The notes under the pieces are model-generated. The model did not search any database and was not told the origin of the DNA. It worked only from the letters and a program-made list of their open reading frames with translations. A stretch of DNA of 56,679 bases, taken from the IMG/VR virus record IMGVR_UViG_3300047328_000094, positions 1 to 56,679 of that record, one strand, 5' to 3'. Numbering within the stretch: position 1 is the first letter of the stretch; every line of letters starts with the position of its first letter. Below are positions 8,590-31,895 of this stretch, in pieces. The position numbers and the translations under genes are program-made. The stretch is from a virus.

Positions 8590-8999
8590 ACTATGTGGCG
8601 AAGCCAGTTGCCGTTGAGGCATTCGTGATTACAGAATTGCATCAAGGGCTCGGGAACGAAACATTAATCTGGCTGGAAGACTGCCGATGCAAAGTTGCCG
8701 ACCATGGCATGCTGGCCCGCTACTATCCGAAACCTGGCGATTACTGGGTTACGCAAGCGGACGGATACGAATACATCAATCCAAAGGCCGTCTTTGAACG
8801 CAAGTATTCGCCGCTGGCCGGCGACGGCACGAAACCGCTGGTCCGCAAGAGCGATGTGTGGTGGATTGTCATACCAGCCGACTTGAGGCACTCGCCAGGT
8901 CCATTTCCCCACCTGGAGTACCATTTCGCATTCTGGGAAGAAGCCTTCCAGCACGCACTGGAAGAAGTGAGTCGGCAGCGATGCGGAATCTTCTCGTGA
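8586..8999 (+). CDS. phage protein with PGDYxV...FERKY motif
   Basis: 137 aa from GTG overlapping the previous stop (GTGA), with an aaggag ribosome site. The N-terminus NYVAKPVAVEAFVI, the motif KPGDYWVTQADGYEYI and INPKAVFERKY match a widespread small phage protein of unknown role, usually seen as PGDWII...YPCKPDIFEATYE. The C-terminal 45 residues (WWIVIPADLRH...) are extra. Family likeness is clear, but no biochemical function is known to me. Confidence 0.65.
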   Translation: MNYVAKPVAVEAFVITELHQGLGNETLIWLEDCRCKVADHGMLARYYPKPGDYWVTQADGYEYINPKAVFERKYSPLAGDGTKPLVRKSDVWWIVIPADLRHSPGPFPHLEYHFAFWEEAFQHALEEVSRQRCGIFS

Positions 9000-9003
9000 C
9001 CGC

Positions 9004-10503
9004 ATGATTGATGAAGAAGTCGACGAAGAGCTGCTCGCTTCGTTGAAAGACTTTGGGCCGGAACTGGCAACGTGGGGCGACGAATACACACCCATAGAGG
9101 ACGAGCTGCCGGAGGTGTACGGCGAGAAGGTAGGCGAAGGCGCCTGGCGCCGCAATTATAAGCCACTGGCGTCCCAGCAGGCGTTTCACGATCTGAAGAC
9201 CCGCTACAAGGGATTCTCAGGGCCGGTCGGATCCGGCAAGTCAGCAGCGCTCTGCCGCGAGGCGTTAAGGCTTGCTTTCGCGAATCCCGGATGTCCTGGC
9301 CTGATCGGCGCGCCGACTTACGGCATGCTGGCGGACGTAACACGGGCGGCGTTTTTTGAACATCTGGATGGAGCTTGCGTCAAATACCGGTTTCTGGCCG
9401 GCCGCAACCTGGTGCGGATCGCGGCCTGTGACGCGACGATCTTTTTTCGTTCGCTGTCGGATCCATCAAAGCTGGTTGGAAAAAACCTGGCGTGGGCCGG
9501 CATCGACGAGGTGACGTTCTGCCCGGAGGAGTCCTGGAAAAAGGTAGAAGCGCGGATCCGCCTGAAGAAGGCAAAGGAACTGGCGCTTTTCGGCGCATGG
9601 ACGCCGCGTGGCTTTGACTGGGCATGGAAGCGATTCCGCAACCCGGACACAAAGCTGCCGAATCACGAATGTATTTTCGCCAAACCGCGCGAGAACGAAG
9701 CGAACCTGGCGGATGGCTATTATGACTCGCTGAAGAATTCCTATGACGCGCAGTTGTTCGCGCAAGAGGCGCTCGGTGAGTACCTGAACGTGTTCTCTGG
9801 TCGCGTCTATTACGGGTTCGACCGGGATCGGAACGGAGCGCTGATCAAGGAGCGCGGAGGGCTGAAGGTAGATGTGGCGCGGCCTATCTGCTGGTCGATG
9901 GATTTCAACGTCGGGCGCATGTCGAGCATCATCGGTCAATACCACGCGGTGATTGGCGATCAGCCGTCCGAGATGAGTGTGCTGGATGAAATCATTCTCA
10001 CGAACTCAAATACGGCAGCTACTTGTGATGAGTTTCTGTATCGGCTGGATCGTCTCACGGCGGGGACGGCACTCGCCAGCGGCGTGGTCAATGTGCGGAT
10101 CTATGGTGATGCTGCCGGCGAGTCTCGCTCGTCGAAGGCGGACACGACGGATTACGAGATCATCCGCCGCTGGGCCCGGCGCAATGCCCACCGGGTCTCG
10201 CTGACCTTTCACGTCCAGGACGCAAACCCGAGCGTCCGCGCGCGCGTCGCGGCCGTGAACGGCATGCTGTTCAACGAGGCTGAGCGGACGCGACTTTTCG
10301 TCGCGCCGCATTGCAAGGGCCTGATCGAAGATCTGGAGCAGGTCGGCTGGGCCAAAGGTCACAATGGCGCCGAAACCGGCGAATTCGACAAGAGCAGCGC
10401 AGCGCTGACGCATATCAGCGACGCAGCCGGTTACTGGGTTTGGAAAGAAGCCGGCATCCGGCAACGGGGCCGGGGATTGGAAAGCACACGGCTGAATTAT
10501 TGA
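9004..10503 (+). CDS. terL: terminase large subunit
   Basis: 499 aa. ATPase: Walker A FSGPVGSGKS (71-80) and Walker B AWAGIDEV (163-170, D168/E169). C-terminal RNase H-like nuclease with Asp residues in SMDFNVG (D300), IYGDAAG (D369) and HISDAAGYW (D473). The protein pumps DNA into the procapsid through the portal and cuts the concatemer. Length and motif order are normal for the terminase_6/terminase_3 type. It starts 4 bp after the preceding gene. Confidence 0.95.
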   Translation: MIDEEVDEELLASLKDFGPELATWGDEYTPIEDELPEVYGEKVGEGAWRRNYKPLASQQAFHDLKTRYKGFSGPVGSGKSAALCREALRLAFANPGCPGLIGAPTYGMLADVTRAAFFEHLDGACVKYRFLAGRNLVRIAACDATIFFRSLSDPSKLVGKNLAWAGIDEVTFCPEESWKKVEARIRLKKAKELALFGAWTPRGFDWAWKRFRNPDTKLPNHECIFAKPRENEANLADGYYDSLKNSYDAQLFAQEALGEYLNVFSGRVYYGFDRDRNGALIKERGGLKVDVARPICWSMDFNVGRMSSIIGQYHAVIGDQPSEMSVLDEIILTNSNTAATCDEFLYRLDRLTAGTALASGVVNVRIYGDAAGESRSSKADTTDYEIIRRWARRNAHRVSLTFHVQDANPSVRARVAAVNGMLFNEAERTRLFVAPHCKGLIEDLEQVGWAKGHNGAETGEFDKSSAALTHISDAAGYWVWKEAGIRQRGRGLESTRLNY

Positions 10504-10509
10504 GGACAC

Positions 10510-10875
10510 ATGGGACATGACGAGATAACCGCGCTGCTTCCGATCTGGCAACGGCGGTTGCGGCTCAACGACTGGGATATCAAGCTTACCTTTGAGAAGC
10601 ACCCGAACTCCCTGGGCAATGTGCGCCTGCAGGCCAACTATAAGAACGCCGAGATTGTGCTCCAGCACACCGACTTCATAGACAACCAAGGCCTCGGAAA
10701 CAAAGATCCCGAAGTCACCCTGGTTCATGAACTGCTGCACGTTCAGGCGGGCGAGTTGACCAGCTTCTTGTGCGCCCGCGACAACGAACGCTACTACGAC
10801 GACATGGAGCGGCTGGTGGAATTGACCGCCATCGCGCTTGTGGATCTGGCGCGCAGGGTACCCAAAGCAGCTTAG
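10510..10875 (+). CDS. HExxH putative zinc metallopeptidase
   Basis: 121 aa. HELLH at 73-77 is a zincin motif, and downstream Glu residues (ERLVELTAIAL) could give the third ligand. The first 60 residues resemble the SprT-like/phage metallopeptidase style (WQRRLRLNDWDIKL). The position, right after the terminase and before head genes, fits a virion-maturation or host-directed protease. It has no signal peptide, so a lytic role outside the cell is unlikely. Activity is inferred from the motif only. Confidence 0.6.
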   Translation: MGHDEITALLPIWQRRLRLNDWDIKLTFEKHPNSLGNVRLQANYKNAEIVLQHTDFIDNQGLGNKDPEVTLVHELLHVQAGELTSFLCARDNERYYDDMERLVELTAIALVDLARRVPKAA

Positions 10876-10899
10876 CTGCGGAAAGTCACGAGGAAATTG

Positions 10900-11331
10900 A
10901 TGGCAACAAAATCAAGAACAGCGAAAGCCAGGGGTAGCCAAACGGAAACACAGGCCGCGGTGTCCGGTATCGCCGACAGGCTGCAGGCAATCGTCGGCAA
11001 CATTAATAAGCAGCGCGCCGACCACCGCGAACAGGAAGCGGCGGCCGATAAGCTTCGGGAAGAAGGTCACGCGGTCGAGCCGAAGCGGGAGGTCATCCAT
11101 CTCTCAAAGCAGGACACGCTGACTTTCCTCGCATGTGACCTACGGGCCGGATTGGTGCGCGCCAACGCCAGAGCAAGCACGATCAACTATCTGCTTTGCG
11201 GTAAAGGCGAGGAAGCCGTGGTGGCCGCGCCCGACGAATGTACGCCAGGATTGTCAGATCTTCTCATCGAATGCAGCGGGCTCCTGGGTTGCCTCAACAC
11301 GAGGCTTTGTCTCATCGAAGGCCGCATTTAA
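10900..11331 (+). CDS. hypothetical coiled-coil protein (143 aa)
   Basis: ATG with an acgagg ribosome site; an in-frame TTG lies one codon upstream. The N-terminal two thirds are Lys/Arg/Gln/Glu-rich helix (RADHREQEAAADKLREEG), probably coiled coil. The C-terminal part carries several Cys. It lies between the metallopeptidase-like gene and the exported-protein block. No family recognised. Confidence 0.55.
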   Translation: MATKSRTAKARGSQTETQAAVSGIADRLQAIVGNINKQRADHREQEAAADKLREEGHAVEPKREVIHLSKQDTLTFLACDLRAGLVRANARASTINYLLCGKGEEAVVAAPDECTPGLSDLLIECSGLLGCLNTRLCLIEGRI

Positions 11332-11400
11332 GGGTGCACCTTACCACTAGCGGCACGATAGTACTAGACGTAATGAGTCTAAAGCTTTAGGCTAAGTGAT
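11329..11400 (+). promoter_or_regulatory. palindrome-bearing gap before exported-protein genes
   Basis: A 69-bp gap holds two palindromes: TAAGG-GTGCA-CCTTA at its start and the perfect 12-mer CTAAAGCTTTAG (about 11379-11390). No standard promoter boxes are clear. The gap may be a regulatory point for the exported-protein genes. Confidence 0.3.
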
Positions 11401-11829
11401 GTGAGGATCCCTATCTTGGCAGCACTGCTGGTCGCTTGGCCGTTTTGCGCAGGCGCGCAGGCGATCTCCACCACGCAGATCGCCGATACGCTGACTGATT
11501 CGTCTGGAAATCCGCTTTCCGGTTCGCTGCGCCTCACCTGGCCAAACTTCACGTCGGGAGCCGGTGATTTCATCCCAGCTGGAAGCCAAACTTACGAGCT
11601 GGTCAGTGGCGCTATGAATATTCAGCTTGCACCCACGGTCAACGGCTCGCCATCGGTTTGTTATTCCGTTCGATTTTTGGACTCCCATGGCGGTCCTGGG
11701 TTCACGCAAATCTGGTCAGTCCCCGTCGCGAATTACGTGCTCCGGCTGGCGAACATTGAGGTCGCTTCTTGCCCGCTGTCGTCTTCAGTGAAGCGCAGGC
11801 GCAGGAAGCCAAATACAGGCACTCACTAA
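11401..11829 (+). CDS. Sec-exported protein with WPxF domain (A)
   Basis: 142 aa from GTG. A signal peptide (MRIPILAALLVAWPFCAGAQA) ends in a good type I cleavage site after residue ~21. The mature beta-rich domain has the pattern DTLTDSSGNPLSGSLRLTWPNF, then a Gly turn, ALNIQL-like strand and WSVPV. The same domain follows the signal peptides of the proteins at 12149 and 14793. It ends in a basic tail (KRRRRK). A phage gene for an exported protein in the head module is unusual. Role unknown: envelope protein, adhesin or tail-associated factor assembled outside. Confidence 0.7.
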   Translation: MRIPILAALLVAWPFCAGAQAISTTQIADTLTDSSGNPLSGSLRLTWPNFTSGAGDFIPAGSQTYELVSGAMNIQLAPTVNGSPSVCYSVRFLDSHGGPGFTQIWSVPVANYVLRLANIEVASCPLSSSVKRRRRKPNTGTH

Positions 11830-11835
11830 CAAAAC

Positions 11836-12165
11836 ATGGCAACACAAGTCGTTCCATTTACGCAAGTCACCGCGGCGACCGCTCTACAGCAGACCGCTTT
11901 TCCGGCCGTCGCCGTCGGAATGCAGGGAAAGTGGGTCGCTGAGCTACATGTGCAACCGGCCGCCGGCAACTATTCCTATATTTCTGTTGTCGACGTGGCA
12001 ACCGGGATTGTCCTGAAGGACCTATTTCCGCCTCCCGCCACCGGCATCGCGGAATCCTGGTGCCTGCACAGCGATCCCGACGAAGATGGCGTGGATCCGA
12101 CGCGCTTCGCAGTGCTGTTTCAGCATGCGGGCGACAAGTGGAATGCCTATGCAGTGGTTCGCTAG
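11836..12165 (+). CDS. small beta-rich protein, possible head decoration
   Basis: 109 aa; no signal peptide, and hydrophobic/beta-rich throughout (SYISVVDVATGIVLKDLF). It starts 6 bp after exported protein A and overlaps exported protein B by 17 bp. A small Ala/Val-rich beta protein in the head region could decorate the capsid, but nothing in the sequence proves it. No family recognised. Confidence 0.5.
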   Translation: MATQVVPFTQVTAATALQQTAFPAVAVGMQGKWVAELHVQPAAGNYSYISVVDVATGIVLKDLFPPPATGIAESWCLHSDPDEDGVDPTRFAVLFQHAGDKWNAYAVVR

Positions 12166-13201
12166 CGCCAGAGCCCTGGCGCTGACTGCGCTGCTGGTGC
12201 TGCTGCTCCCGGCGATTCTGCAGGCCGTCCAGATCACGGATACGCTTCTCGACTCGACGCACGCTCCGGCGAACGGCACACTGCTGATTTCCTGGCCATC
12301 GTTCACCGGTTCAAACTCTCAGGTTCAGAGCGGTGGAACGACCCGTATCAAGATCACGTCCGGCGCGCTAAATATCTTCCTCGCCGCAACAGTCGGTGGA
12401 ACCTCCTTTGGGGGCGGCTCTCCTTATTACACGGCGCAATTCTTTTCCACCACAGGCAACGGCTCGTTCACGGCGACCTGGAACGTGCCGGTAGCGACGG
12501 TGCCTGTGAACCTCGCAGCCATCTGCGTCAGCGGCTGTAACACGTCATCTTCTTCGGGAAGCACCGCAGGTGTCACCGCAATCGCTGTGAATGGCGGCTC
12601 TCTGCAAACGGGAAATGTCGCGCTAACCATCCCCACTGCAGATAGTCAACTGACAAACGATGCCGGCTTTCAGACGGCTTCGCAGGTGGCGACGGCGATC
12701 ACGTCGGCGGTGTCATCCAGCCTGGTGAACGTCGGGTTTTCCGATGCGGAGGTGCCGGGGGGCACCGTGAATGGATCGAACACGGTCTTCACTTTGAGCC
12801 AGGCACCCTACCCAGTGCTCAGCCTGCAGCTCGTCCGCAACGGGCAGACTTTGACCTTAGGCGGGGATTTCACGCTGGGCGGCTCGACCGTTACCTTCAT
12901 TAACGGTGTAGTTCCCGTCGTCGGTGACAACCTGCAGGCCTGGTATCGCTATTCTTCGCTGGGCGCAACTCCCAGCGTTCATTTCTCGGATGCAGAAGTC
13001 CCGGCCGGAGTTGTCAACGGCAGTAACACGGCCTTCACACTGGCGAACACTCCGGTCAACCCGGCCGGCATTTACCTCACTCGCAACGGCCTGGCGCAGA
13101 AATATGGCCTCGATTTCTCCATATCAGGAGCGGCGATCACTTTTTTGAGCGTTGCCATTCCGACAACTGGAGATGTTCTCCTCGCGTGGTACCGATACTG
13201 A
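12149..13201 (+). CDS. Sec-exported protein with WPxF domain and tandem NGxN/RNG domains (B)
   Basis: 350 aa. Signal peptide from ATG 12149 (ASARALALTALLVLLLPAILQA); ATG 12143 is an alternative. Residues ~23-130: the WPxF domain (SWPSF...WNVPV). After a Gly/Ser linker come two tandem ~75-residue repeats: FSDAEVPGGTVNGSNTVFTL...RNGQTL...AWYRY and FSDAEVPAGVVNGSNTAFTL...RNGLAQ...AWYRY. These NGxN/RNG/AWYRY units are common in phage tail fibres, so a cell-surface or receptor role is plausible. It ends by TGATG overlap into the portal gene, so it is translated with virion proteins. Confidence 0.7.
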   Translation: MQWFASARALALTALLVLLLPAILQAVQITDTLLDSTHAPANGTLLISWPSFTGSNSQVQSGGTTRIKITSGALNIFLAATVGGTSFGGGSPYYTAQFFSTTGNGSFTATWNVPVATVPVNLAAICVSGCNTSSSSGSTAGVTAIAVNGGSLQTGNVALTIPTADSQLTNDAGFQTASQVATAITSAVSSSLVNVGFSDAEVPGGTVNGSNTVFTLSQAPYPVLSLQLVRNGQTLTLGGDFTLGGSTVTFINGVVPVVGDNLQAWYRYSSLGATPSVHFSDAEVPAGVVNGSNTAFTLANTPVNPAGIYLTRNGLAQKYGLDFSISGAAITFLSVAIPTTGDVLLAWYRY

Positions 13202-14784
13202 TGGCGACAAACCCTCTCATTCCTCCAGGCATTTCCGTCATCGACCAGGACAGCAACAGCGTCGACGCTAAGCACTCGTATTGGAATTTATGGTCAGGCA
13301 ACTGGGCCAAGATCGACCTGCTGTGTATCGGCGGCGGCGACATCCTGCGCAACGCGCAGACATTCCTGGTCAAGAAACCCAAAGAGAATGGAGATGTGTA
13401 CGAAGCGCGTTGCGCTGACATGACGTACACGAACCTTCTGGGTACCGGCGTTACCTATTACGCCGCGCAGCTCTTTGGCGAAGAATGGACGGCGACGTTT
13501 AGCTCCGTCGACGGATCGTCGTCAAAATCCGCTCTCCCACCTTTCTATGCTGGCTTTGCGGCTGACGTGGACAGGTCGGGCACAGGGATGTCGCCGTTCC
13601 TGCAGCAGGTCTTCAAAGGTGCGCTCAAGTTTGGGACAGTCTGGGTGCTGACCGATCTGCCGCTGCAGGGAGAATACAAAACTCGCGCGGATCAAAAGGC
13701 CGCGGGTGCCGATGCCCCTTATTGGACTATGTTCGACCCGCGTCAGGTCATCAACTGGGACGAGGATGAGCACGGAGTGCTGAACTGGGCGGTGACGTAC
13801 TCCGTGCGCACGGAGCGCACGTTCAAAGCCGGCATAAAAGCAATCGACTGCTGGACCTATTACGACCGCATGACCTTCCAAAAGTGGGAAGCGCCAAGAA
13901 AGCAGCAGACCGGTCAGCCGGATACTTTCGCTGCGACTCTGGTGACAAGCGGTCCCCACGCTCTCGCAGCCGTCAACCGAGTTCCGCTTCGGCGGCTCGA
14001 CATCGATCCCGATTATTGGATAGCCAACCGCGCGTACCCGGCTGCCCTTGATCACCTTAACCTGGACAACCGCTACGCGTGGGCGCTCAAGATGGCGAAC
14101 CTGCCAGTCCCATATATAAAGGGCGAGTTCGACGAACCGCCCGCCGGCTCCACGACGGAGCTGATGCAGATCCCTGCCGGGTCAGACTTCGGCTGGACCG
14201 AGCCGAAGGGGACTAGTTTTGAACACTCAGACCGGCGCCTGGCGTCGCTCGTCGAAGAAATCTACCGGCAGATGCACCTGCAGAACATGGGCAAGCGCGC
14301 CTCTGCAACCGCGTCCAGTTTGTCCGGTGAAAGTAAGCGCGAAGACCGAGAGGCTTCGCAAAGTATTTTGTCCAGTTACGCCAAATGGCTCCGCAACGCC
14401 GGGCGCCAATTGCTGCGCGATGTCCTTGACGCTCGCGGTGACACCAACCTTTCGGCAGAGATCTCCGGCACCGACTTTGAAGAGGTGGACCTCGATGCGG
14501 CCCTGGCCACGCTCGACCTGATGACCACCGTTGACATCCCGAGCGACACGCTCGAAAAGGTGGCCCAGACGCAGGTGGCTTTGAAGATTGCGCGCGACGA
14601 AACGGAAGAGACACGGCAGAAGATCAAAACCGAGATCGAGGCAGCGCCAACCAGATCCGAGCGCGCCGAGCAGCAGTCGCAGTTAGCCTCGCAGCAGTTC
14701 CAGCAGGCGCTCCAGCAGCAGACGGACCGCGCCGCAACCAAGCAACTCACCAACGAAGAACTTCAGGGTGCGCCCGAAGATTGA
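13201..14784 (+). CDS. portal protein
   Basis: 527 aa; ATG at 13201 overlaps the previous stop, chosen over an upstream GTG. Its size, its position between terminase and scaffold/coat, an RRLDID...LDHLNLDNRYAWALKMANLPVP segment and a long Gln/Glu-rich helical C-terminus (AEQQSQLASQQFQQ) are typical of portals in the DUF4055/SPP1 gp6 style. It forms the dodecameric ring at one vertex that docks the terminase and later the neck. Exported-protein genes flank it on both sides. Confidence 0.8.
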   Translation: MATNPLIPPGISVIDQDSNSVDAKHSYWNLWSGNWAKIDLLCIGGGDILRNAQTFLVKKPKENGDVYEARCADMTYTNLLGTGVTYYAAQLFGEEWTATFSSVDGSSSKSALPPFYAGFAADVDRSGTGMSPFLQQVFKGALKFGTVWVLTDLPLQGEYKTRADQKAAGADAPYWTMFDPRQVINWDEDEHGVLNWAVTYSVRTERTFKAGIKAIDCWTYYDRMTFQKWEAPRKQQTGQPDTFAATLVTSGPHALAAVNRVPLRRLDIDPDYWIANRAYPAALDHLNLDNRYAWALKMANLPVPYIKGEFDEPPAGSTTELMQIPAGSDFGWTEPKGTSFEHSDRRLASLVEEIYRQMHLQNMGKRASATASSLSGESKREDREASQSILSSYAKWLRNAGRQLLRDVLDARGDTNLSAEISGTDFEEVDLDAALATLDLMTTVDIPSDTLEKVAQTQVALKIARDETEETRQKIKTEIEAAPTRSERAEQQSQLASQQFQQALQQQTDRAATKQLTNEELQGAPED

Positions 14785-14792
14785 TCCTCTAT

Positions 14793-15746
14793 ATGCGTGT
14801 AAAAACGAAGCTATTCTCCCTCCTCTTACTGATGACCGCCGCGCTGACGGCCCAGGTCACTCTGACCAATATTCCCGCCGTTGACCAGAACGGCACGGCC
14901 GTAACTACGGGCCTCATGTTTCTGACCTGGCCGCAGTTCCTCGATAACAACGGGAACATCGTGCAGGGGAACCAGCAGACCGTCAAGATATCGGGCGGCG
15001 TATTCACCGTCACGCTAACGGCCTCTGATAACGCCGGCTACGTCTATCACGCGCTAGTCATGACTGGCGGGAGCGGCAACGTGCAGGCGTCGCAGTTCCA
15101 GCTCAAAGTGCCGGCGGCCGGCGCAACGACGTGGGCCCAGATCGTGCAGCCAGCACAGCCGCCCATCGCCGGTGACGTTCCTGTTTATGACATTCACGGA
15201 AAGCTGATCGACTCCGGTTCGCCTCCCGGCAGCGGCTCATCGACTAGGACCTGGTCGTACTCATTATCTGGACTTTGCCAGGGATCGGTGGCAACAGCGG
15301 GCATCTGGCTGCCAACCGCGAATCAGCCGACATTCAACAGCTGTACGTCAACGACGCAGCAGGGCGAGTGGGTGATCGCAGCGGCAAATACAACTGCCAA
15401 TTGGGGCCTGCAATTTGTCGTACCTACCGGCACATCCGGAAGCTGGTCGCTGAAGCTAACCTGGCGGACGGCCGACACAACGACGGCGCACGCCCTTGTC
15501 CTGCAGCCATCCTATGCCTGCGTCGCAACCGGGAGCGCGCCGGATAATCCCAGCTACACGACCCTCTCCGCCGTGACACTCAATCCGGGCTCGACAGCAA
15601 GCGTGAACGCCACGGCGTCGCTGACATTCACCCCGACATGCGCGGCAGGGAGTCAATTCAGGCTTTTGCTTACGCCGACTTCGAACAACTTCGCTTCTCC
15701 GGCGCAGTTCTCCTACGAAAGTATTTCGCTGCTGGCCAGCAACTGA
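14793..15746 (+). CDS. Sec-exported protein with WPxF-like domain (C)
   Basis: 317 aa. Signal peptide MRVKTKLFSLLLLMTAALTAQ, cleaved near residue 21; TTG 14781 is an alternative start. N-terminal domain: LTNIPAVDQNGTAVTTG then LTWPQF and a VKISGGVFTVTL strand, a diverged relative of proteins A and B. The C-terminal ~160 residues form a second beta-sandwich rich in Thr/Ser with Cys pairs, consistent with disulfides outside the cytoplasm. It sits between portal and a beta-helix protein that is also exported. Confidence 0.7.
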   Translation: MRVKTKLFSLLLLMTAALTAQVTLTNIPAVDQNGTAVTTGLMFLTWPQFLDNNGNIVQGNQQTVKISGGVFTVTLTASDNAGYVYHALVMTGGSGNVQASQFQLKVPAAGATTWAQIVQPAQPPIAGDVPVYDIHGKLIDSGSPPGSGSSTRTWSYSLSGLCQGSVATAGIWLPTANQPTFNSCTSTTQQGEWVIAAANTTANWGLQFVVPTGTSGSWSLKLTWRTADTTTAHALVLQPSYACVATGSAPDNPSYTTLSAVTLNPGSTASVNATASLTFTPTCAAGSQFRLLLTPTSNNFASPAQFSYESISLLASN

Positions 15747-15753
15747 GGAACCT

Positions 15754-18168
15754 ATGAGATTTCTAAAGTGCAATCTTCAATTACTCATTCTGCTTTTGGG
15801 TATCGCGTCGTTCGCTTCGGCCAATAACACCTGCGCTCTCAACGTGGGTACTGCAGCGCACTACACGTTTTCGACAACAGTTGCCAGCGACTGGACATCG
15901 TGTGGTGGAACCACTCCGCAGGCCGGAGACAACATCACCATAACGGGCACGGCTCACACATTTACATTGGATGCCGCGCACACTTTCGGGATTGGCCAGG
16001 CGCCTTATCTGGCATATCCGTCCTCGATCACTGGCTCGGCTACCGGAGGGACATGCGGCTCGGCGCCCTCATTAGGAGGAACCAGCGTTAACGGCAATTT
16101 GTCGGCGGCGGTTGGTTGTCAGGTGGTGAGCGGCAACTGCACACCCTATCTCTATCAGCGCGGTTATTACAGTGCAACGGGGACGACGGCAATTTCGAGC
16201 ACGTGCTCCGGCGGCACGGCTGCCTGGACACTCAACTGGCAATCCGGCGGCGGAACTCCCGCGATCTTGTCCGGCACCGGGACGCAGGTGATTATCGCCG
16301 CGGCGATCACGGCGCGAGGGGATGTGCTGGCAGTAGACAGTTATGGAGACACGTCGACCGGCCTCAGCTTTACGAACGGCGGCAACTTGGTGTTTGATTT
16401 CTCGCTCTCGGCGGCGTCGACAAATCTGTATAGCTTTGGTAACGAGGGCAATGGCGGTTCCTGGAGCCGCGCCTACTCGTCGGACGGCACCTGCACTACG
16501 GCAACTTGCTCCATAAGCACCACGGGCTCAGGCGTATGGCGGCTGTCAGCGGGCGGAGCCAATCACGGTCCGATTCTGAGCTTCAACCATATGGCGCTCA
16601 GTAACGGCGGTGATTCTACCGAGCCATGGTTTTATACCGTGACTAACGAGGGAACTTATGGCGGGTTCACTCTAAAAAATTCAACGGTGAAGAAGAGTTC
16701 CTTGGCGCAGATCGCGAATGTGAGCGGCGGTTCGGGAGAAACGATCGACATCGAAAACAATCAGTTCGCAAACACGGTGTTTTCGAATCTGCCGTTAGCC
16801 GGCGGTTTTGCTCAAACCAATTTCAACATCAGTTTCCCCACATCGGCAGATTCGGCCACGAAGGTAATCATCAATAACTCTTCAGATAAAGCGCTATTCC
16901 AAAGCAGCAGCTTGCTTGGCGTCACCGTGAAAGGCAATGTCATCGGGGGCAATGTCAATGCCGTAACCGATTATTCAACCCCTTGGGTTGCCGACAACAA
17001 TTTCTTTGTCGGCTATAGTCAGTCTTCGTCTAATTCGTTCAACACGCCGGGCGACGTGACTCATAGCGTCTTCTTTAACTTCGACACCACCAGCAACTGG
17101 CATGTGCTTCTCGACTGGCAGGTGGCGCGGAACACGCTGGAGCAGTACAACATCTTCGGTGTCGCGGTCGCGAATTCTGGCGACTCGGGCGAGATTTCGC
17201 AGGTGCCGATCAGCTCAAGCTACACGATGACCTTCGATAACAACATCATTCTGCCGGATCCCGCGGCGCATTCCTGGTCAGAACCGGCGGGAAGCGCCGG
17301 CACGCGCGCGGGCTACCAGATCACGGATCACAACTATTGGTACGCGGATTACGGCGCGAGCAATCCGGCCTTCGGATTCGCACAATTGGATGAAAACGGC
17401 CAGTCGCACACTGGCGTCATCACGTCGATGCGCTGCAACACCCTCTGGAACCCAGTCGACAGTAACTCATTCGTGAAGATTGACGACCAGTTATATACAT
17501 CGACGGTGAGCAATCCGGGAACGGCGACGGGGCTGGATTACAACTGGGGCCGCGGCTCGTCTGCGACACAGCTCAATACCTGCTCGGGTTGCACGGGCCA
17601 AACAAACGGCTACATCTCGGCCTTCAGTGGCGTTGTGCCTGGCGCGCATGACAACAATGCGATTGATCCGGGCGTGGACTATAAGCGCGTGATCGAGGCG
17701 TTTGCGAGCGACTATCTGCACGTCACTCCCTCGCGCGGCGCGTGGACGTCGACGACGTATGCGCAGGGCGACACGGTGAGCTCCGCGGTAAGCGGCTTTT
17801 ACTGGGGCAAAAGCCTGATCTATACGTGTTACGCGCTGGCGGGCTGCAGCTCGGCTCCGCAGCCGGGCACGTCCGGTGCCTGGTACTCGTATTGGGAACC
17901 GTACACCTTGACCTGGCTCAAGAACAATGTGCCCCTCGGCACCACGCTGGTGGACGGCGCGCTGCAGGTCTATGGAATCGGCGAGGACGCGGCCTGCTCG
18001 ACAGCTTCGCCGTGTGATCCGATCACGGCAGTGCGCCACTGGATCTTCGCTGGACACATCCCGTCGACTACGCAGTTCGTCGGTGCCTGTGCAATGGATG
18101 GCGCGAGCATCGGTCCCGTTGACGCCAAACTGAATCGCAAATCAATCCCTGCGGTCGCGGTGAATTAG
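15754..18168 (+). CDS. large exported parallel beta-helix protein
   Basis: 804 aa. Signal peptide (LQLLILLLGIASFASA) with cleavage near residue 23. The mature protein is Ser/Thr/Gly/Asn-rich, with many short repeats of the form GNxF/IxNN/KGNVIGGN typical of a right-handed beta-helix (about 270-520). Cys pairs (CTTATC, CSGC, CSTASPC) suggest disulfides, fitting export. Beta-helix folds in phages usually bind or cleave polysaccharides. No catalytic residues can be assigned from the sequence. It lies 7 bp after exported protein C. Confidence 0.65.
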   Translation: MRFLKCNLQLLILLLGIASFASANNTCALNVGTAAHYTFSTTVASDWTSCGGTTPQAGDNITITGTAHTFTLDAAHTFGIGQAPYLAYPSSITGSATGGTCGSAPSLGGTSVNGNLSAAVGCQVVSGNCTPYLYQRGYYSATGTTAISSTCSGGTAAWTLNWQSGGGTPAILSGTGTQVIIAAAITARGDVLAVDSYGDTSTGLSFTNGGNLVFDFSLSAASTNLYSFGNEGNGGSWSRAYSSDGTCTTATCSISTTGSGVWRLSAGGANHGPILSFNHMALSNGGDSTEPWFYTVTNEGTYGGFTLKNSTVKKSSLAQIANVSGGSGETIDIENNQFANTVFSNLPLAGGFAQTNFNISFPTSADSATKVIINNSSDKALFQSSSLLGVTVKGNVIGGNVNAVTDYSTPWVADNNFFVGYSQSSSNSFNTPGDVTHSVFFNFDTTSNWHVLLDWQVARNTLEQYNIFGVAVANSGDSGEISQVPISSSYTMTFDNNIILPDPAAHSWSEPAGSAGTRAGYQITDHNYWYADYGASNPAFGFAQLDENGQSHTGVITSMRCNTLWNPVDSNSFVKIDDQLYTSTVSNPGTATGLDYNWGRGSSATQLNTCSGCTGQTNGYISAFSGVVPGAHDNNAIDPGVDYKRVIEAFASDYLHVTPSRGAWTSTTYAQGDTVSSAVSGFYWGKSLIYTCYALAGCSSAPQPGTSGAWYSYWEPYTLTWLKNNVPLGTTLVDGALQVYGIGEDAACSTASPCDPITAVRHWIFAGHIPSTTQFVGACAMDGASIGPVDAKLNRKSIPAVAVN

Positions 18169-18480
18169 TGCTAACAAAACAGGGATTCCGTCGTAGCCTC
18201 GGAATTGGAAGCGAATCGCGAGGCAATGCTTCTATCCCAGCGCGGACACCCTGCGCCCGGCGCGCAATTGTTGGCTGCGCCAGACGGGTGGTCCGAACGA
18301 TAGCTCGAGCTTCATTTCGCGCCGGCGTATCGACAGCGCTAAGCGTGGCTCCGGAGAATACCTCACGATTCGCCGGAGCGCGGGCGGAGGTGCGCCATAA
18401 GTCTCCGGCGACCTCCTCTGCCCGTATCCAACCTGTTCACGTCTCATCCGGCCCTTGGCCATTCCCGAAAGGAAAAACAT
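18169..18480. other. 312-bp gap before scaffold gene, no gene supported
   Basis: Open frames cross this stretch but they are Arg/Ser/Pro-rich, lack a ribosome site and look like GC-rich shadow. One frame (about 18205-18388) reads like a plausible peptide (CFYPSADTLRPARNCWLRQ) but has no start codon and a stop just upstream. It could be a gene remnant or an untranslated leader. The last 15 bp hold the ribosome site gaaagga of the scaffold gene. Confidence 0.5.
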
Positions 18481-19263
18481 ATGCAGTTCGGTAAGTATTT
18501 GCTCAACGGCTCTCTCTTTACCGAGGCCGATGGCTCTGCCAATGGCGGCGGAGACAACAAAGGCGGCACGCCTCCTGCCATCGACCCGAAGGTGCTGGCA
18601 GAAGCATTGAAGAGCGTGATCGGTCCGCAGCTTGCGGACATGGGCAAGCGCCTTGAAGTGTTCGAGAACCGCTTCAAGTCGCAGGATCAGAAGGACGCGG
18701 AAGCGAAAGCCCGGGAAGAGGAAGAGCGTCAGGCGCGCGAGGACGCCGAAGCTGCCAAGAATAAGAGTGGTGCTGACGGCGGCGACGGCAAGGGCGCCAT
18801 GGATGCCCAGGCACGGCAACTTCAGCGCCAGCTTGAACGGGTACAGAAGCAGTTAGACGACGAAAAGAAGCTGCGTGAGCAAACAGAAACGCAGGCCAAA
18901 CAGCAGGCGCGCGCAAGCAAGATTCGTTCCGCGCTGGATCAGTTTGAGTACGCAAAACCAGGGATTGGGAAAGAGCTTGCTTACAAACACGTCGATCCGC
19001 TGCTGAAAACTGACGAGAACGGCGAACTACAGACTCCGGACGGAACTCCGCTCAACGTCTGGCTCAAGGATCTCTTTGAAGGAGATCTCGATACTCTGGC
19101 TGCGCCGCGCAGCGGTGTTGGCGGCAGCGGTGCTTCTGGCACACGAGGCAGTACGGGCACCGTTCGCTTTGACATCAACGACATTAAGCCGGGCGCCAAG
19201 AATCTCGAAGCCATCCGGGCGCATATCTCGCAATTGGCGCGAGAACAAATGGGCCAGCGCTAA
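18481..19263 (+). CDS. capsid scaffolding protein
   Basis: 260 aa with a good ribosome site. A Gly/Asp-rich N-terminus precedes a long charged helix (residues ~60-150: DQKDAEAKAREEEERQAREDAEA, QRQLERVQKQLDDEKKLREQ), then a Gly/Ser linker and a short basic C-terminal helix (AIRAHISQLAREQ). The acidic coiled-coil body with a helical C-terminus is the usual scaffold design, the C-terminus contacting coat. It precedes the coat gene by 88 bp. No protease is fused to it. Confidence 0.8.
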   Translation: MQFGKYLLNGSLFTEADGSANGGGDNKGGTPPAIDPKVLAEALKSVIGPQLADMGKRLEVFENRFKSQDQKDAEAKAREEEERQAREDAEAAKNKSGADGGDGKGAMDAQARQLQRQLERVQKQLDDEKKLREQTETQAKQQARASKIRSALDQFEYAKPGIGKELAYKHVDPLLKTDENGELQTPDGTPLNVWLKDLFEGDLDTLAAPRSGVGGSGASGTRGSTGTVRFDINDIKPGAKNLEAIRAHISQLAREQMGQR

Positions 19264-19351
19264 GCCGCAGCTCAAACTTTTCACATTAAACAGTTTCTCT
19301 CTGGATAGTTCAGAATCTGCGAACAATAGAGAGAAAGAGGAGAACACTTCT

Positions 19352-20263
19352 TTGGCAGATATTACTTCAGCGAATCTCGCAAATGCGATCGTAAAACTCG
19401 TGGCGGCCGAAGCGCTGCCGGCTCTCATGAGCAACATGGTTATGGGCAACCTGGTTAATCGGGATTATGAACCGGTTCTCGCCAACACCGGCGACACGAT
19501 CAACGTCCCGATTCCCCCCGTTCTGGTCGCGAACAACATTGCCCAAGGTGGCACCGTCACCCCGCAGAACCCGAATCTGGGCAACGGCCAGATTGTCCTC
19601 AACACTCACAATGAGGCGACGTTCCAGATTCCGGACGTTACCAAGGCCCTGGCGTTTCCCGGACTGCTGCAGGCTTATATGCAGCCGGCCGTCATCGCGA
19701 TCGCGACCAGCGTCGAGCAATCCCTGCTTAGCAACTACGCTCTGTTCACCGCCAATACACCGCTCGGTACCGGCGGCACTCCGATCACGGAAGCGGTCCT
19801 CGATACGGCTGAGACGAATCTGTTCAACTCGTTCGTTCCGCCGGGCGCTCCCAAATACCTGGTTTGCGATTCCGGCACCTATTCGGCTCTTCGCCAGATT
19901 CCGCGGTTCACGGAATGGCTCAACACTGGTCAGCAGGGTATTGACGCCATCATCCAGGGCCAGATCGGGAAACTGAAGGACTTCTTCATTTTCCGCTCGC
20001 AGAACGTTCCACAGACCGGAACGAGCCCTGTTACCAATCATTCGTTTGCCTTCGCTAAGGATGCACTGGGTTTGGTCGTCCGCCGTCTTCCGATGCCTCT
20101 TCCTGGCACCGGCGCCATTGCCGAATATGCGGAAATTGGCAGCTTCGGAGTCCGTGTCGTGATGTCGTATCAGCCAAACACCTTGGCCCAGCAGTTCACC
20201 GTCGACATCCTCTACGGCGTCGGACAGCTCAGGAACTCATTCGGTCAGGTGATTCAGAGCTAG
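19352..20263 (+). CDS. major capsid protein (P22 coat-like)
   Basis: 303 aa from TTG preceded by aaagaggag; upstream in-frame starts lie inside the scaffold gene and are unlikely. The N-terminus ADITSANLANAIVKLVAAEALPAL and the LVNRDYEPVLANTGDTINVPIPP, GQIVLNTHNEATFQIPDV and QPAVIAIATSVEQSLLSNY blocks fit the P22 gp5-type coat family (HK97 fold). It assembles the icosahedral shell with the scaffold. It is followed by a strong hairpin. Confidence 0.88.
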   Translation: MADITSANLANAIVKLVAAEALPALMSNMVMGNLVNRDYEPVLANTGDTINVPIPPVLVANNIAQGGTVTPQNPNLGNGQIVLNTHNEATFQIPDVTKALAFPGLLQAYMQPAVIAIATSVEQSLLSNYALFTANTPLGTGGTPITEAVLDTAETNLFNSFVPPGAPKYLVCDSGTYSALRQIPRFTEWLNTGQQGIDAIIQGQIGKLKDFFIFRSQNVPQTGTSPVTNHSFAFAKDALGLVVRRLPMPLPGTGAIAEYAEIGSFGVRVVMSYQPNTLAQQFTVDILYGVGQLRNSFGQVIQS

Positions 20264-20297
20264 TCTCCACCGCAGTAGAACACCGCTTTTTGTTATG

Positions 20298-20370
20298 AGA
20301 GCGGCCCGAGAAACAAGCATCGCCCTGAAACCGGCTTTGCCCATGTTTCAAGGCCGCTCTTCCATTTTTG
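20298..20370 (+). terminator. hairpin / terminator-like element after coat gene
   Basis: The perfect 9-bp arms AGAGCGGCC (20298-20306) and GGCCGCTCT (20352-20360) enclose a second stem, CCTGAAAC with GTTTCA(A)GG. The outer stem is followed by TCCATTTTTG. This is either a partial rho-independent terminator, lowering expression beyond the coat gene, or an mRNA-stabilising hairpin. Confidence 0.6.
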
Positions 20371-20395
20371 TGGCAAGCAGCAAGGAGAAATAGCA

Positions 20396-20785
20396 GTGGT
20401 TGATCTTCAGCGCTATTACAAACGCGTTCACGAAATCGAGGCCGAGATCCTGGCGACAGGAACGAAATGGCCTCTTGTCATGTCCGTAGAGGACGAAAGC
20501 AGGGGCTGGAAAGGAGGTACCGTCAGCGAGGTATCGACTTATGTCGCCGGTCAAATGATAGTGGCGGGTTCTCATCGTCTCGCAACACTAGAAGAGATTG
20601 ATGCCTATAAGGCAGAATTGGAACGCCGTCGCGAGGCTTCGCGGCAGGCGGACATTCGCAGCGGTGCCAAGCTGATCGTCGAGCAGTTGAGCCGGACCGG
20701 TATCAGCCAGCACATGCCTGTACCCGCGCCAGCACCCGAGCCCTCAAAGAAGCCGACCGGCAGAAACGAAGACAAGAAGGACTAG
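20396..20785 (+). CDS. hypothetical head-region protein (129 aa)
   Basis: GTG start with an excellent aaggag ribosome site. The N-terminal half is a compact mixed fold (WPLVMSVEDESRGWKGG, VSTYVAGQMIV). The C-terminal half is a charged helix (DAYKAELERRREASRQADIRSG) and a Pro/Lys-rich tail. It is the first gene after the coat hairpin. It could be a head-tail joining or accessory head protein; no family is recognised. Confidence 0.55.
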   Translation: MVDLQRYYKRVHEIEAEILATGTKWPLVMSVEDESRGWKGGTVSEVSTYVAGQMIVAGSHRLATLEEIDAYKAELERRREASRQADIRSGAKLIVEQLSRTGISQHMPVPAPAPEPSKKPTGRNEDKKD

Positions 20786-26555: not shown

Positions 26556-27120
26556 CCTAACCAGTAAAACCCGCCATCCAAGCAAACTCCTGCCGGACGT
26601 CACCATCGTTATCAAGAAAATGTCGATGGGCGTCCGGCTCGCGCTACGAAAGGAGACCGCCGCCGCGGCGCGACGACTTGTCGAGGCATCTGACGAAGTT
26701 CAGCGCGTCTCGAAGGAGTTCAACGATTCCATCAAGGACCTGTCCGCACAGGAGCAGGCGACCACTCGTTGGCCGAAGGAATTGACCGATGCTTTCGAAG
26801 CTGCAGCGGCAGAACAGGAGGCGATCGACAAAGCCTATATCGATGTGTGCCTTGTCTCAATCGACGGAGCGACGATCGATGGTAAGCCTATCACCGCTAG
26901 CGATGTATACGAGCGTTGCGGGCCGGAATTCTTCCGCGAAGTCTCCGAAGTGATCAAGAGCGAATACGGTTTGACGGAGCGTGAGAAGGGGGAATCCGCG
27001 CCGCCTTCCATTTCCGGCGCAGCGGAGGGTGGCAGCGCGAAGAGTTTCAGTGCGGAGCCTGCAAGCGAAGAGGCAACTACCTTCAACGGAACTGCCGACG
27101 TTACTTCCCCGGTGATGTAG
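26548..27120 (+). CDS. putative tail assembly chaperone (190 aa)
   Basis: ATG 26548 overlaps the previous gene by 8 bp; in-frame upstream starts are rejected. Residues 1-150 form a helical domain (KMSMGVRLALRKETAAAARRLVEASDEVQ), followed by a Ser/Ala/Glu-rich tail. The place between tube and tape measure is that of lambda gpG/gpGT-type chaperones. A run of five G at 26987-26991 sits just after the last stop in the -1 frame; that frame then stays open to 27431, so a frameshift product is possible (see findings). Confidence 0.55.
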   Translation: MIDLTSKTRHPSKLLPDVTIVIKKMSMGVRLALRKETAAAARRLVEASDEVQRVSKEFNDSIKDLSAQEQATTRWPKELTDAFEAAAAEQEAIDKAYIDVCLVSIDGATIDGKPITASDVYERCGPEFFREVSEVIKSEYGLTEREKGESAPPSISGAAEGGSAKSFSAEPASEEATTFNGTADVTSPVM

Positions 27121-27128
27121 GCGAGACG

Positions 27129-27431
27129 GTGGACGGGATCCGTCCAAAAGCGCGTTGGCGGCCAATGTACACGCTGCCCGGAGGAATTGTGTATACGGTT
27201 CCGAGCGTAGATATTCAGGAGTGCCCGGTGTCTTATATCGGGGATGGTGTGGCGGAGTTGGTTCATGATCTGGAGCTGGCCAGGACGGTGCACGCGGCCT
27301 ACGGGGCACCGGTTCTGACAGAACCATTCTTGGAATGGCCGGTGAAAATGGCGGAAGTGCTGGACATATTGGAGCAGGAACGCAGGGCAGACGAGTATCA
27401 CGCATGGAAAGCTTCGCAAAAGAAGGACTGA
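27129..27431 (+). CDS. putative second tail chaperone (gpT-like), 100 aa
   Basis: GTG 27129 is the first start in this frame after the preceding gene's stop; ATG 27165 is an alternative. The protein has a compact beta/alpha N-terminus (YTLPGGIVYTVPSVDIQE) and a helical tail (AEVLDILEQERRADEYHAW). It ends 6 bp before the tape measure, the position of gpT-like partners. It might be made only as the C-terminal part of a frameshift fusion with the previous gene. Confidence 0.5.
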   Translation: MDGIRPKARWRPMYTLPGGIVYTVPSVDIQECPVSYIGDGVAELVHDLELARTVHAAYGAPVLTEPFLEWPVKMAEVLDILEQERRADEYHAWKASQKKD

Positions 27432-27436
27432 GCTAA

Positions 27437-30400
27437 GTGGCTGACGACATCCTGGAGCTGCTGTTTAAAGTCACCACCGCCGACGATGGCGGACTGAACC
27501 GGGTCGATCAGGCAGTTAAGAAGATCGGCCAGGATTCTGGCTTGACCGGCGCGGCGCTCCAGAACCTCGAAGCGGGCGTGCGCAAGTCGTTCGAATCGAT
27601 GGTCCAGTCCGGACTCACGTTTGAGCAATCGCTGAAGCGTATCTCGCAGTCTGGCGACACTATCGGGCGCGGAGTCGGCAACATCGCCAAAGACATGGTC
27701 AAGGCGCTGAACGACGCCGCGACCGCTGCCGGCAATCTTCAGCAGCGCCAGCAGCAACTTCAACAATCAGCAACGGGCTTGCAGTCCGCCCTTGGAAATC
27801 CGCTGCAGGCGATCGGGACCGTCGCCACAAACACCGCCGCCGCGCTGGGCCCTGTAGGCATCGCGATCATCGGTCTCGCCACAGTTTCGACCTTGGGCGC
27901 AAAAGCGATGTTCGACCTGGTCGACGCGCAAGGCCGCGCGGCACAGGCCACGCTCAACATGGCGAACCAGCTCGGCATTTCGACCGGGTCAATGCGCCAA
28001 ATGGAGGTCGAGGCCAAGATCGTTGGGCTCTCCTTCCAGTCCATGATGATTGCCTCGCGCAATCTGGCGGTTGGTCTAGAAGATCCTACCGGAGCGGGGA
28101 GGAATGCGGCGAAGGCGCTGAACGAACTCGGCGTGGCCACCCAGACCGCAAGCGGCGCCGTTCGCGGCGAGGGCCAGGTTTTTCAGGATGCAATCGAGCA
28201 GCTCGCAGGAATTGAAGATCAATCGAAGCGGACCGAGGAAGCAACCCGCCTCTTCGGCTCGCGCGGATCCGCCTCGCTCGTCGCGCTGGTAGCTCGCTAC
28301 AAGGAGCTGAAGCAGGCCACCGAAGAACTCGGATACGGAAGCACCGACCAACTCGTCCAGGGTTTAGCAAAGGCGCAAGAGAGCGTCAATAAGGTATCCG
28401 CGGCATGGGACCTTTTCAAAGCTAAGCTGGCCGAGAAAATAGCACCTATCGTTGTTCCGGTTTTGGTCAAGCTGACGGCCGCACTCAAACCCGACGATCC
28501 CGCCAATGCCATTGGTTCGAAGGGAGCGCAAGACCGCGCAACAAGAGAGAACCAGGCTTTCTATGGCGCCAATGGTGCCAGTGTGTTCAGTGCGCTCTTT
28601 ACCCAGCTCGGCCTCACGAGCGATCAGCTTAGGGGCGGCCTGGGCGGAGACAGGTTCGGTGGCCTAGCACTCGCAGATCAGACCAGGACCCAGGAACTCG
28701 CCGCCGGCAAAAGCATCACCGACAAGTTCAACGCCGAGTATGCCAAGACGTCAGAAGGCCTTGCGGCGCGCCTGCGCGAAAACTCGGATGCGCTGAAGAA
28801 GGTCACGGACAAATTAGCCTTGGGCGGTCTGAGCCAGAGCGCGGCCAGTGATCTCAGCGCGCAGGCGTCCAGCCTCGAAGCGCAGCGCTCCTCTCTAGAA
28901 GCACAAAAGAAAGCGCTGGAGCAGTCTCAAACTGAAGTTGCCAAGCTTCGGGATGACGCAAAATATCCCGATCTCCAATCGCCCATTGAATTTCGCAAGC
29001 TGATAGCGGAGCGCCAGAAAGAGCTGTCCGTTGTCGGACCAGGGAATGCCGGCCTCGTCGATGCGAGTCCAACCTTTGGAACGGACAAAATCAATGACGC
29101 GATACGCAACTTCTTCCAGAAAATCAGCGATGAGATTCAGAAGGATGCCGCGGGCGTCGTCAAAACGGAAGACCGCTTCGACCGAGGCGACCCGGACAGC
29201 GAAGCCTACAAAAAGCAGCTCAAAGACAATCTGGAGCTCGCGAAGCTGCAATATGACCAGTCGCAGAAACAGCTCAAGATCTTCGATGACTCAGACCGGG
29301 ATGCAGCTCGCGCGAAGCGTGACGCGGCCGTCAAGCTCGCAGAACTGAGCACTGGTGGATTCGGTGGCGGTGCGGGCGCGATTCTCACCGGCGCGCAAAC
29401 AAGCATTTCCGATTCTCAGCAGCAGTTCTCCGACCGCATAGCGGAGATTGAACAGGAGGCTGACGCGTACCGACAGGAGGGCGGCGATCGACTGACGCTG
29501 CAGAAGCAGCTCGGGGATCTGGCCACCCAGCAACTGCAGGCAGAGGCAGAGCTTCGCAAGGAAATCGACGCGGCGCAACTGGACTCCGCGGTCAAACTCG
29601 CCGAATACCAGAAACAGCAACTCGACAGCTACAAACAGCAGGGCGAACAGATCTTCGACGCGCTCCGCCAGCGTGGTGGCATTCAGCAATACTTTCGCGG
29701 TCAAGTGACTGATCTGGCCAAGGGTGTCTTCAGCAATGTCACGGCTCCGGTATTGCAGCAGATCGGCCAGAGCCTGGGATCCGCCGGCAGCGCGATTGGC
29801 GGTAACAGCGGCATCTTTCGGGGCACCGCGCTCGATCCTTCCCGGGCCGAGTCGCCGCAGGTGCGATCGCTGGATCTGAACAGGGCATCGCTCGACAAGA
29901 ACACAGCGGCGCTCGGCAATATCACGCGAATCTATGGCGGCGGATCCAGCGCCGCGCCCGCAGGCAGCGCGCCGTCGTCGCTGCTTCGAACTCCTGGCTT
30001 CCTGCCCTCTTCCACCGCCAGCGCAGCGGGCGCGGATCCGCTGTCCGATATCGAAGGATTTCTGGGCGGCGCTGGCGGGGTCGGACCGGTGGCGGGTGCA
30101 ACCGCAACGCTAACCGACGCCATCTCGACAAACACGGACGCCACGAACAAACTGACGGCCACCTATTCAGGGACACCGGTGGGCGGCCAGGCCGCAAGCG
30201 TACAGAGCGGATCCGTAGGCGCCAGCCTTACGAAGCTCGTCGGCGGAGGGGGCAGCGGAGGCGGTTCAGATAATCAATTTCTCGACGGGCTGCTTGGCAT
30301 CGTCGGCGGAAAAGGTGGAATCGGCGGAGGCGGACTGTTCGCGGGCCTGAATTCCAACGCCGGCATGACAGGCACGTACCGGGCGGGTAACATCATCAGC

Positions 30401-31057: not shown

Positions 31058-31510
31058 ATGACACCGGTATTCCAGACACGTTTTGGCCGCGGTAACGGGA
31101 ATTGCCTCACCGCGTGCATAGCATCTGTTCTTGACCTGGCCATTGACCAGGTTGCGGAGTTTGCTGACTCGCACGAAGAGTGGTTCGCCGCATTGTCCGA
31201 CTTCTGCGAGGCGCTGGATCTCACGCTTCTTTATTGGGGTTCCGAAGTGCATCAAGGTGTGTTCGCCTCCAACACCGACCTCATCATTTTGTTGAGCGTT
31301 GCCGGAGAAGAGGAGCTTCACGCCGTAGTGGGCAAAGCCGTCATCGAGGAGCGTCCTCGGCCCGGGCATTCCGGCTGGCGCGCCGAGGTAATCCACGATC
31401 CGAATCCGCGCGGTACTGGACCGGTTGAGTCGGCGTTTGGCTTCTTGATAGTGAAACGAAATAGGCAAATCGTGAGCGGGACCAATGGGAGACCGAAATG
31501 GACCGTCTGA
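31058..31510 (+). CDS. C39/papain-like cysteine peptidase-fold protein
   Basis: 150 aa, starting directly after the tape measure stop. GNGNCLTACIASVLDLAIDQVAEF at the N-terminus resembles the Cys-containing helix of C39-type peptidases (nucleophile Cys16), with ELHAVVG (His88) and VIHDPNP (Asp114) completing a C-H-D triad. The order Cys-His-Asp is as in papain-fold enzymes. In this place, after the tape measure, many phages carry NlpC/P60-type tail peptidases that open the cell wall. So a tail-tip peptidase is likely, but activity is inferred. Confidence 0.6.
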   Translation: MTPVFQTRFGRGNGNCLTACIASVLDLAIDQVAEFADSHEEWFAALSDFCEALDLTLLYWGSEVHQGVFASNTDLIILLSVAGEEELHAVVGKAVIEERPRPGHSGWRAEVIHDPNPRGTGPVESAFGFLIVKRNRQIVSGTNGRPKWTV

Positions 31511-31535
31511 AAAGCAGGCTTAGGAGGCCGCGGTA

Positions 31536-31895
31536 ATGGCGGCGTTTCCCACGCTCACCTGCGGGGCCGTGGTCATGGCCGGGTCCAGTTACTCCGTCGC
31601 TTTCCCCGCCACTGTGGTCCGCTTCATCGGCGGCCAGGAGCAGCGCTGGGTCAAAGGCCAGCAGCGGGCAACAGATATTGAGATTGTCCTGGTGGACATC
31701 TCGCAATATGACATCTCACAGGTGCGCGCGTTTTGGATTGCAGCCAAAGGAGCGGCCGGGACGAGTTGGTCGATCACGATTGACGGCATAACCTATACCA
31801 ACATGGCGTTTGCCGATGACAACTTTACGCCGGTCCTCTCCGATTCCGGCGGCGACCTGTGGAATCTCACACTGAAAGCGATGCAGACAATTTAG
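31536..31895 (+). CDS. minor tail protein (119 aa)
   Basis: ATG follows aggaggccgcggta, a very strong site. The protein is beta-rich (SYSVAFPATVVRFIGG, WSITIDGITYTNMAF) without a signal peptide. Its place, after the tape measure and before the large distal proteins, suggests a distal-tail or lambda gpM-like protein. No motif gives a family. Confidence 0.55.
   Translation: MAAFPTLTCGAVVMAGSSYSVAFPATVVRFIGGQEQRWVKGQQRATDIEIVLVDISQYDISQVRAFWIAAKGAAGTSWSITIDGITYTNMAFADDNFTPVLSDSGGDLWNLTLKAMQTI

Follow-up and report, generated by a model that had tools for sequence, protein, structure and literature searches.

Predicted Sec-exported, fibre-type proteins interleaved with the head genes of a probable acidobacterial phage

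Results

Four predicted exported proteins within the head module

According to our best reading, four proteins encoded among the packaging, portal and coat genes of the window (the whole 56,679-bp stretch of a virus record, from a soil-type phage, analysed here) are exported fibre or glycan-binding proteins of acidobacterial phages. Together with similar proteins in unrelated phages and in a conserved phage-derived cluster of Acidobacteria, they suggest that certain fibres leave the cell ahead of their action. We assign a probability of roughly 0.4 to the more specific proposal that these exported fibre-type proteins attach to virions outside the cytoplasm or at lysis. We know of no phage that exports fibres before joining them to virions, and a search of open-access PMC returned no description of exported phage fibres.

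All genes of the module lie on the + strand. The terminase large subunit (9004..10503; phrog_2, E 4.9e-34; PF03237, E 7.7e-10) is followed by two genes starting at 10510 and 10897, and then by the first of the four proteins (11401..11829, GTG start), which has 142 aa and three Cys residues and comprises a putative signal peptide at residues 1-19 (cleavage between AGA and Q) and a WPxF domain at about 20-125. The next gene (11836..12165) encodes a 109-aa protein without a signal peptide, whose function was not identified by Pfam or PHROG; it overlaps by 17 nt the gene of the second predicted exported protein (12149..13201, ATG start, 350 aa), which is composed of a signal peptide at 1-26 (cleavage between LQA and V), a WPxF domain at 25-130, and a pair of DAEVP/CBM_X2-like repeats at about 194-350. 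The stop codon of 12149 overlaps the ATG of the portal gene (13201..14784; phrog_145, E 1.4e-47), and a gap of 8 nt separates the latter from the third predicted exported protein (14793..15746, ATG start, 317 aa), with a signal peptide at about 1-20, a diverged WPxF domain and a C-domain at 133-317 carrying four conserved Cys residues. Another 7 nt further begins the fourth (15754..18168, ATG start), an 804-aa Cys-rich protein with a predicted signal peptide at 1-23 (cleavage between ASA and NNTC) and without the WPxF domain. The module continues with a scaffold-like charged coiled-coil protein (18481..19263) and a major coat protein of the P22 type (19334..20263, start codon approximate; PF11651, E 2.3e-11).

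The four ORFs are situated as claimed in the original prediction and are tightly coupled to the head genes, by overlaps or by gaps of 7-8 nt. Their placement around the portal and ahead of the coat is likewise borne out by the family matches, while a scaffold role for 18481, which they were also said to precede, is plausible from position and charge, with no family match. Scanning of the region 8900-20500 revealed no excess of sigma70-like promoters or of terminators. Elsewhere in the window, after the tail genes, the segment 33069-34112 encodes a single-TM protein and then a putative lipoprotein with an LLGC lipobox-like motif, i.e. further predicted envelope-directed proteins.

Signal peptides were called not with SignalP but with our own tripartite rule, which combines a positive n-region, a hydrophobic h-region and small residues at positions -3 and -1. 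Proteins 11401, 12149, 14793 and 15754, for which clear signal peptides had been claimed, all pass this rule with strong scores, compared with 37 of 1080 shuffled window proteins (3.4%) and 9 of 161 antisense ORFs. The remaining passes in the window are the lipoprotein (33492), the single-TM protein (33069) and two weak matches.

A related cassette of predicted exported proteins in an unrelated phage

Comparison with other phages strongly supports the predicted Sec export of the window proteins. A 47-kb contig (L154) encodes a Mu-gpT-like coat, as opposed to the P22-type coat of the window, and tblastn searches with the window portal, terminase and coat found no match in it. Between its portal and coat genes lies a predicted exported protein of 316 aa, which shares 67% identity with 14793 in the C-domain, where all four Cys residues are kept, and differs in the N-domain; swapping of the N-domain behind a retained signal is expected where selection acts on export. 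The gene immediately after it encodes a 795-aa protein that is 77% identical to the 804-aa protein of the window. The signal peptides of this pair are unlike and the mature starts are identical (NNTC), and 16 of 17 Cys residues are kept, the odd one being located in the signal peptide. Further on, a predicted exported 305-aa protein exhibits 58% identity to the C-terminus of 12149; its signal peptide (MLRCFALLLAVWLPMAA followed by Q) was read by eye, as the rule missed it owing to a Met at -3. The Cys residues, described as disulfide-like in the original prediction, are conserved in the 804-aa protein and in the C-domain of 14793. What is retained in the predicted signal peptides is their function rather than their sequence. 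A DUF2190-like decoration domain, suspected in the 316-aa protein, is not claimed, as Pfam and PDB sequence searches came out empty.

The WPxF domain and its likeness to fibre anchors

The WPxF domain of ~100 aa is common to 11401, 12149 and 14793, as had been proposed for three of the four proteins, and the three copies are homologous, with significant matches of 11401 as the query to 12149 (E 1e-19) and to 14793 (E 1e-5). In an AlphaFold model of 12149, for which nine related rows were supplied, the WPxF domain alone reaches good confidence (residues 25-130, pLDDT 75-92), and the rest is of low confidence. When these residues were compared with known structures by VIA-align, the top five matches were N-terminal domains of phage fibres: the Bxb1 tail tip (Z 9.8), the A-1(L) neck fibre (9.4), the Ur-lambda tail tip (9.0), the XM1 neck (8.9) and the A-1(L) tail fibre (8.8). 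All other folds, including pilins and other surface proteins, scored Z <= 7.8, and a Foldseek search against viral models yielded tailspikes, fibres and an endosialidase adaptor among its matches. According to the model, the mature form of 12149 would start with a beta-sandwich of the neck/tail-fibre type, a likeness of fold only, and by homology the same N-terminal domain is predicted in 11401 and 14793; 15754 is without it. In cyanophage A-1(L), the neck fibre is held on the neck by its gp82N domain (PMC10966104). The fold by itself does not prove a virion role, because the authors of that study note that gp82N is also similar to a pilus component (PMC10966104).

The WPxF domain was also found without a signal peptide, at the extreme N-terminus of fibre proteins (L034, L008, L011), so that its occurrence in ordinary fibres, named in the original prediction as an argument against a separate exported assembly, is in part a fact. 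Removal of the signal peptide from the window proteins would therefore yield the same N-terminus as in the fibres of L034 and L011. Taken together with the fold of virion-bound fibre N-termini, this means that the window proteins may be fibres that, once exported, are added to the particle, rather than a separate secreted complex. Two other candidate relationships were discarded: a collagen adhesin, the sole match of the WPxF profile among PDB sequences (E 0.4), was not used, and tape-measure-like ORFs matched by a degenerate DNA pattern proved unrelated on inspection by eye.

The beta-helix suggested earlier for the 804-aa protein was not confirmed, the AlphaFold model having a pLDDT of 30 and the sequence having no Pfam or PHROG match. 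Nor did Pfam or PHROG reveal an enzymatic module (beta-helix, esterase) in any of the predicted exported proteins of the window, and the CBM_X2 match of the C-terminal repeats of 12149 is sub-threshold only. We found no close relatives of the window portal among viral contigs and none in 200 Acidobacteriaceae-family genomes; the 804-aa protein gave no match in 297 genomes of the phylum, and together with 12149 none in the phage collection. The host is probably a member of Acidobacteriota; with no relatives of the portal or the 804-aa protein in the acidobacterial genomes searched, this assignment follows only from the distribution of the WPxF domain.

Other phages and host loci

Predicted signal peptides in front of WPxF domains and in neighboring proteins recur in several other phage-like loci. 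In one of them (G568, L019), the terminase (phrog_38, 4.5e-34) is immediately succeeded by four signal-peptide proteins of 117, 117, 340 and 1081 aa; one more, which bears WPxF, is located at the contig end. The block spans G568 26888-31860 (L165 8888-13857), and its 1081-aa protein has 18 Cys residues. In L027, a predicted exported WPxF protein and a second predicted exported protein come after an HK97-type coat and an adaptor. L143, a prophage-like contig of an acidobacterial genome, carries two predicted exported proteins after the tail genes (9795-16403), one with Ig-like and WPxF domains and the other with tail-spike PHROG matches. After a tape-measure-like gene of L004 (7845-12507) we found two proteins predicted to be exported: one is collagen-like and contains a WPxF-related domain, the other has 633 aa and a C-terminal TM anchor. 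Stand-alone genes for signal-peptide WPxF proteins are present outside phage clusters in two acidobacterial genomes (L141 9244-10545, L142 8247-9572). Predicted export is not confined to the head module, as such proteins occur where tail fibres are encoded in L143, behind the tape measure in L004 and near lysis genes in L019.

A phage-derived cluster next to purE-purK in Acidobacteriaceae

A WPxF profile matched 138 of 200 genomes of the family to which an Acidobacteriaceae MAG belongs, nearly always once per genome, and 38 of 396 genomes in a sample of the phylum. In about 20 genomes of the family (L083-L102 and extensions), the domain belongs to a phage-derived, single-copy cluster of ~20 kb, which comprises genes for a terminase, a HipA-like protein, DUF3037, a portal (PF04860, 9e-55), a coat-like protein, a head-tail adaptor, tail-like proteins and the predicted exported WPxF protein, in two variants of gene order. 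The HipA-like kinase and DUF3037 genes are fixed members, located between terminase and portal (L089 11096-13068). In 18 of the 21 genomes examined purE-purK adjoin the cluster. Its portal was found in 114 of the 200 genomes, 107 of which also have WPxF (odds ratio 27, P 3e-19). Distances for all cluster genes track those of RecA (Mantel r 0.64-0.88, with 0 of 2000 permutations as high), as do those of the flanking purE/purK (r 0.80-0.83), and dN/dS is about 0.03-0.21 for the terminase, portal, coat, adaptor, WPxF and other genes, as calculated for all but the last three. No replication or integration genes were detected among the gene families common to the clusters. The cluster is a vertically inherited, phage-derived element under purifying selection at a fixed chromosomal site.

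We saw no fibre-like gene in the cluster other than WPxF, which is also its fastest-evolving gene, with a mean identity of 36% versus 81% for the coat. Among 60 distinct WPxF proteins of the family, 56 have a predicted signal peptide whose end lies immediately ahead of the domain; the residue at -1 is Ala in 54 of these, and the identity within the signal peptides is lower (37%) than within the domain (54%). With a cruder choice of start codons, 15 of 20 WPxF proteins pass the tripartite rule, compared with 0-3 of about 20 in each of the other gene families of the cluster. Pfam modules at the C-terminus of WPxF homologs include a pectate-lyase-type beta-helix (PF12708) and GDSL, and in a related Acidobacteriaceae MAG a GDSL module is carried by a predicted exported neighbor protein.

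The purE-purK cluster is a good candidate for a gene transfer agent or another kind of particle, and a search of open-access PMC returned no description of gene transfer agents in Acidobacteria. Two acidobacterial prophage clusters, 140 and 153, have been described as conserved phage-like regions of Granulicella/Terriglobus-type genomes and treated as prophages, and the part of that report available to us makes no mention of signal peptides or of a purEK position (PMC5900883). They may overlap with the purE-purK locus.

Discussion

Virion fibres or secreted surface proteins

In order to explain why fibre-type proteins should carry signal peptides, we propose the following sequence of events. 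The proteins would be translated late, together with the head genes, and would pass through the Sec pathway, where signal peptidase would cut off the first 19-26 residues. Three of the mature proteins would then consist of a beta-sandwich of ~100 aa, of the type that fastens fibres to virions, followed by a variable module that is likely to bind or process glycans. Folding and disulfide formation would take place in the periplasm or at the cell surface, and there, or at lysis, the proteins would join virions as neck/head fibres or spikes, on which they may serve as auxiliary adhesins or glycan-processing parts. Attachment to the virion is favored because the fold is that of an anchor, because the mature N-terminus corresponds to that of fibres without signal peptides, because the genes are linked with particle genes, and because WPxF is the sole fibre-like gene seen in the purEK cluster.

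A quite possible alternative, to which we give somewhat less than an even chance, is that the proteins are secreted or displayed on the surface and at no stage become part of virions: cells that are infected or lysogenic would export fibre-derived adhesins and glycan-active proteins that act in superinfection exclusion, in degradation of the matrix aiding release, or in adhesion, an interpretation that also covers morons and auxiliary genes. All four window proteins have predicted Sec signals, the C-terminal repeats of 12149 weakly resemble CBM_X2, and enzyme- or surface-like proteins predicted to be exported occupy related positions, such as the GDSL protein of L029. A surface or secreted function alone would also account for the stand-alone host genes, for the TM anchor in L004, and for the fibre-like genes without signal peptides at 34155 and 39248 of the window, in whose presence the exported proteins would not be needed for basic adsorption. 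Against it, WPxF resembles the virion anchors of fibres and starts fibres devoid of signal peptides, and its homologs in L143 are found at the tail-fibre position. Morons normally have their own promoter and terminator, and the overlap of the window genes with head genes, without an excess of promoters, argues against that variant. A shared extracytoplasmic role of the four proteins, as put forward in the original prediction, is well supported by the recurrence of the same predicted exported cassette in unrelated phages and by the glycan-active modules of the homologs; the idea of a separate secreted complex is weakened insofar as the proteins may be virion fibres instead.

It is unlikely that we are dealing with ordinary virion fibres that are produced in the cytoplasm and in which the hydrophobic N-terminus would be an uncut segment contacting the capsid or a membrane, because the signal sequences diverge and yet keep the form of a signal peptide. 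Such a segment should be conserved in sequence; instead, the n/h/c pattern and the Ala at -1 persist despite divergence and end right before the conserved mature part, both in WPxF proteins and in the 804/795-aa pair that lacks the domain, and the mature parts are rich in conserved Cys residues. Gene order would suit head or neck fibres on this interpretation, and WPxF also starts fibres without signal peptides. Still far less credible is an artefact, with N-termini that are hydrophobic by chance or start codons that are wrongly assigned, and with no biological unit behind it. Some antisense ORFs in GC-rich DNA do pass the rule, but here four strong passes stand in a row, and the pattern is repeated in L154, G568, L027, L143 and about 56 acidobacterial loci, so that the statistics of the rule and the conservation in homologs rule this explanation out for practical purposes.

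Comparison with known systems and implications

As far as we know, fibres of tailed phages are taken to fold and to join the particle in the cytoplasm. The predicted WPxF fold matches the N-domains of the A-1(L) neck fibre gp82 (PDB 8KEG) and of the Bxb1, Ur-lambda and XM1 proteins, with identities of about 15-18%, but the aligned regions of these fibre proteins begin at residues 1-2, and to our knowledge none of these fibres has a Sec signal peptide. WPxF homologs of the acidobacterial clusters carry PF12708 beta-helix and GDSL modules like those of tailspikes and fibres, from which they differ by the signal peptide in front, while the window proteins are without a confirmed enzymatic module. 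Exported proteins encoded among structural genes are known from morons of the lambda Lom and Cor type; in contrast to these, the window genes overlap head genes, several of them are consecutive, they encode fibre-type domains, and they show no promoter signal. Gene transfer agents of the RcGTA type are single-copy, vertically inherited and under purifying selection, with head and packaging genes at a fixed place. The Acidobacteriaceae cluster, known here from its genes, shares all these traits, and differs by adjoining purE-purK and by including HipA-like and DUF3037 genes and a predicted exported fibre.

If the preferred reading of exported fibres is extended to the cluster, a phage lineage and a domesticated, GTA-like element of Acidobacteriaceae would both finish their particles outside the cytoplasm, with Sec-exported, disulfide-bonded fibres joined at or after lysis; we advance this wider proposal tentatively and regard it as rather more doubtful than not. 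The comparison has in any case exposed a selected, vertically inherited, phage-derived cluster in Acidobacteriaceae, which is nearly always accompanied by a predicted exported WPxF fibre. If true, our interpretation would add a new extracytoplasmic step to phage assembly, or else a new class of phage-coded surface or glycan-acting proteins, in the phages of a phylum that ranks among the most abundant in soil.
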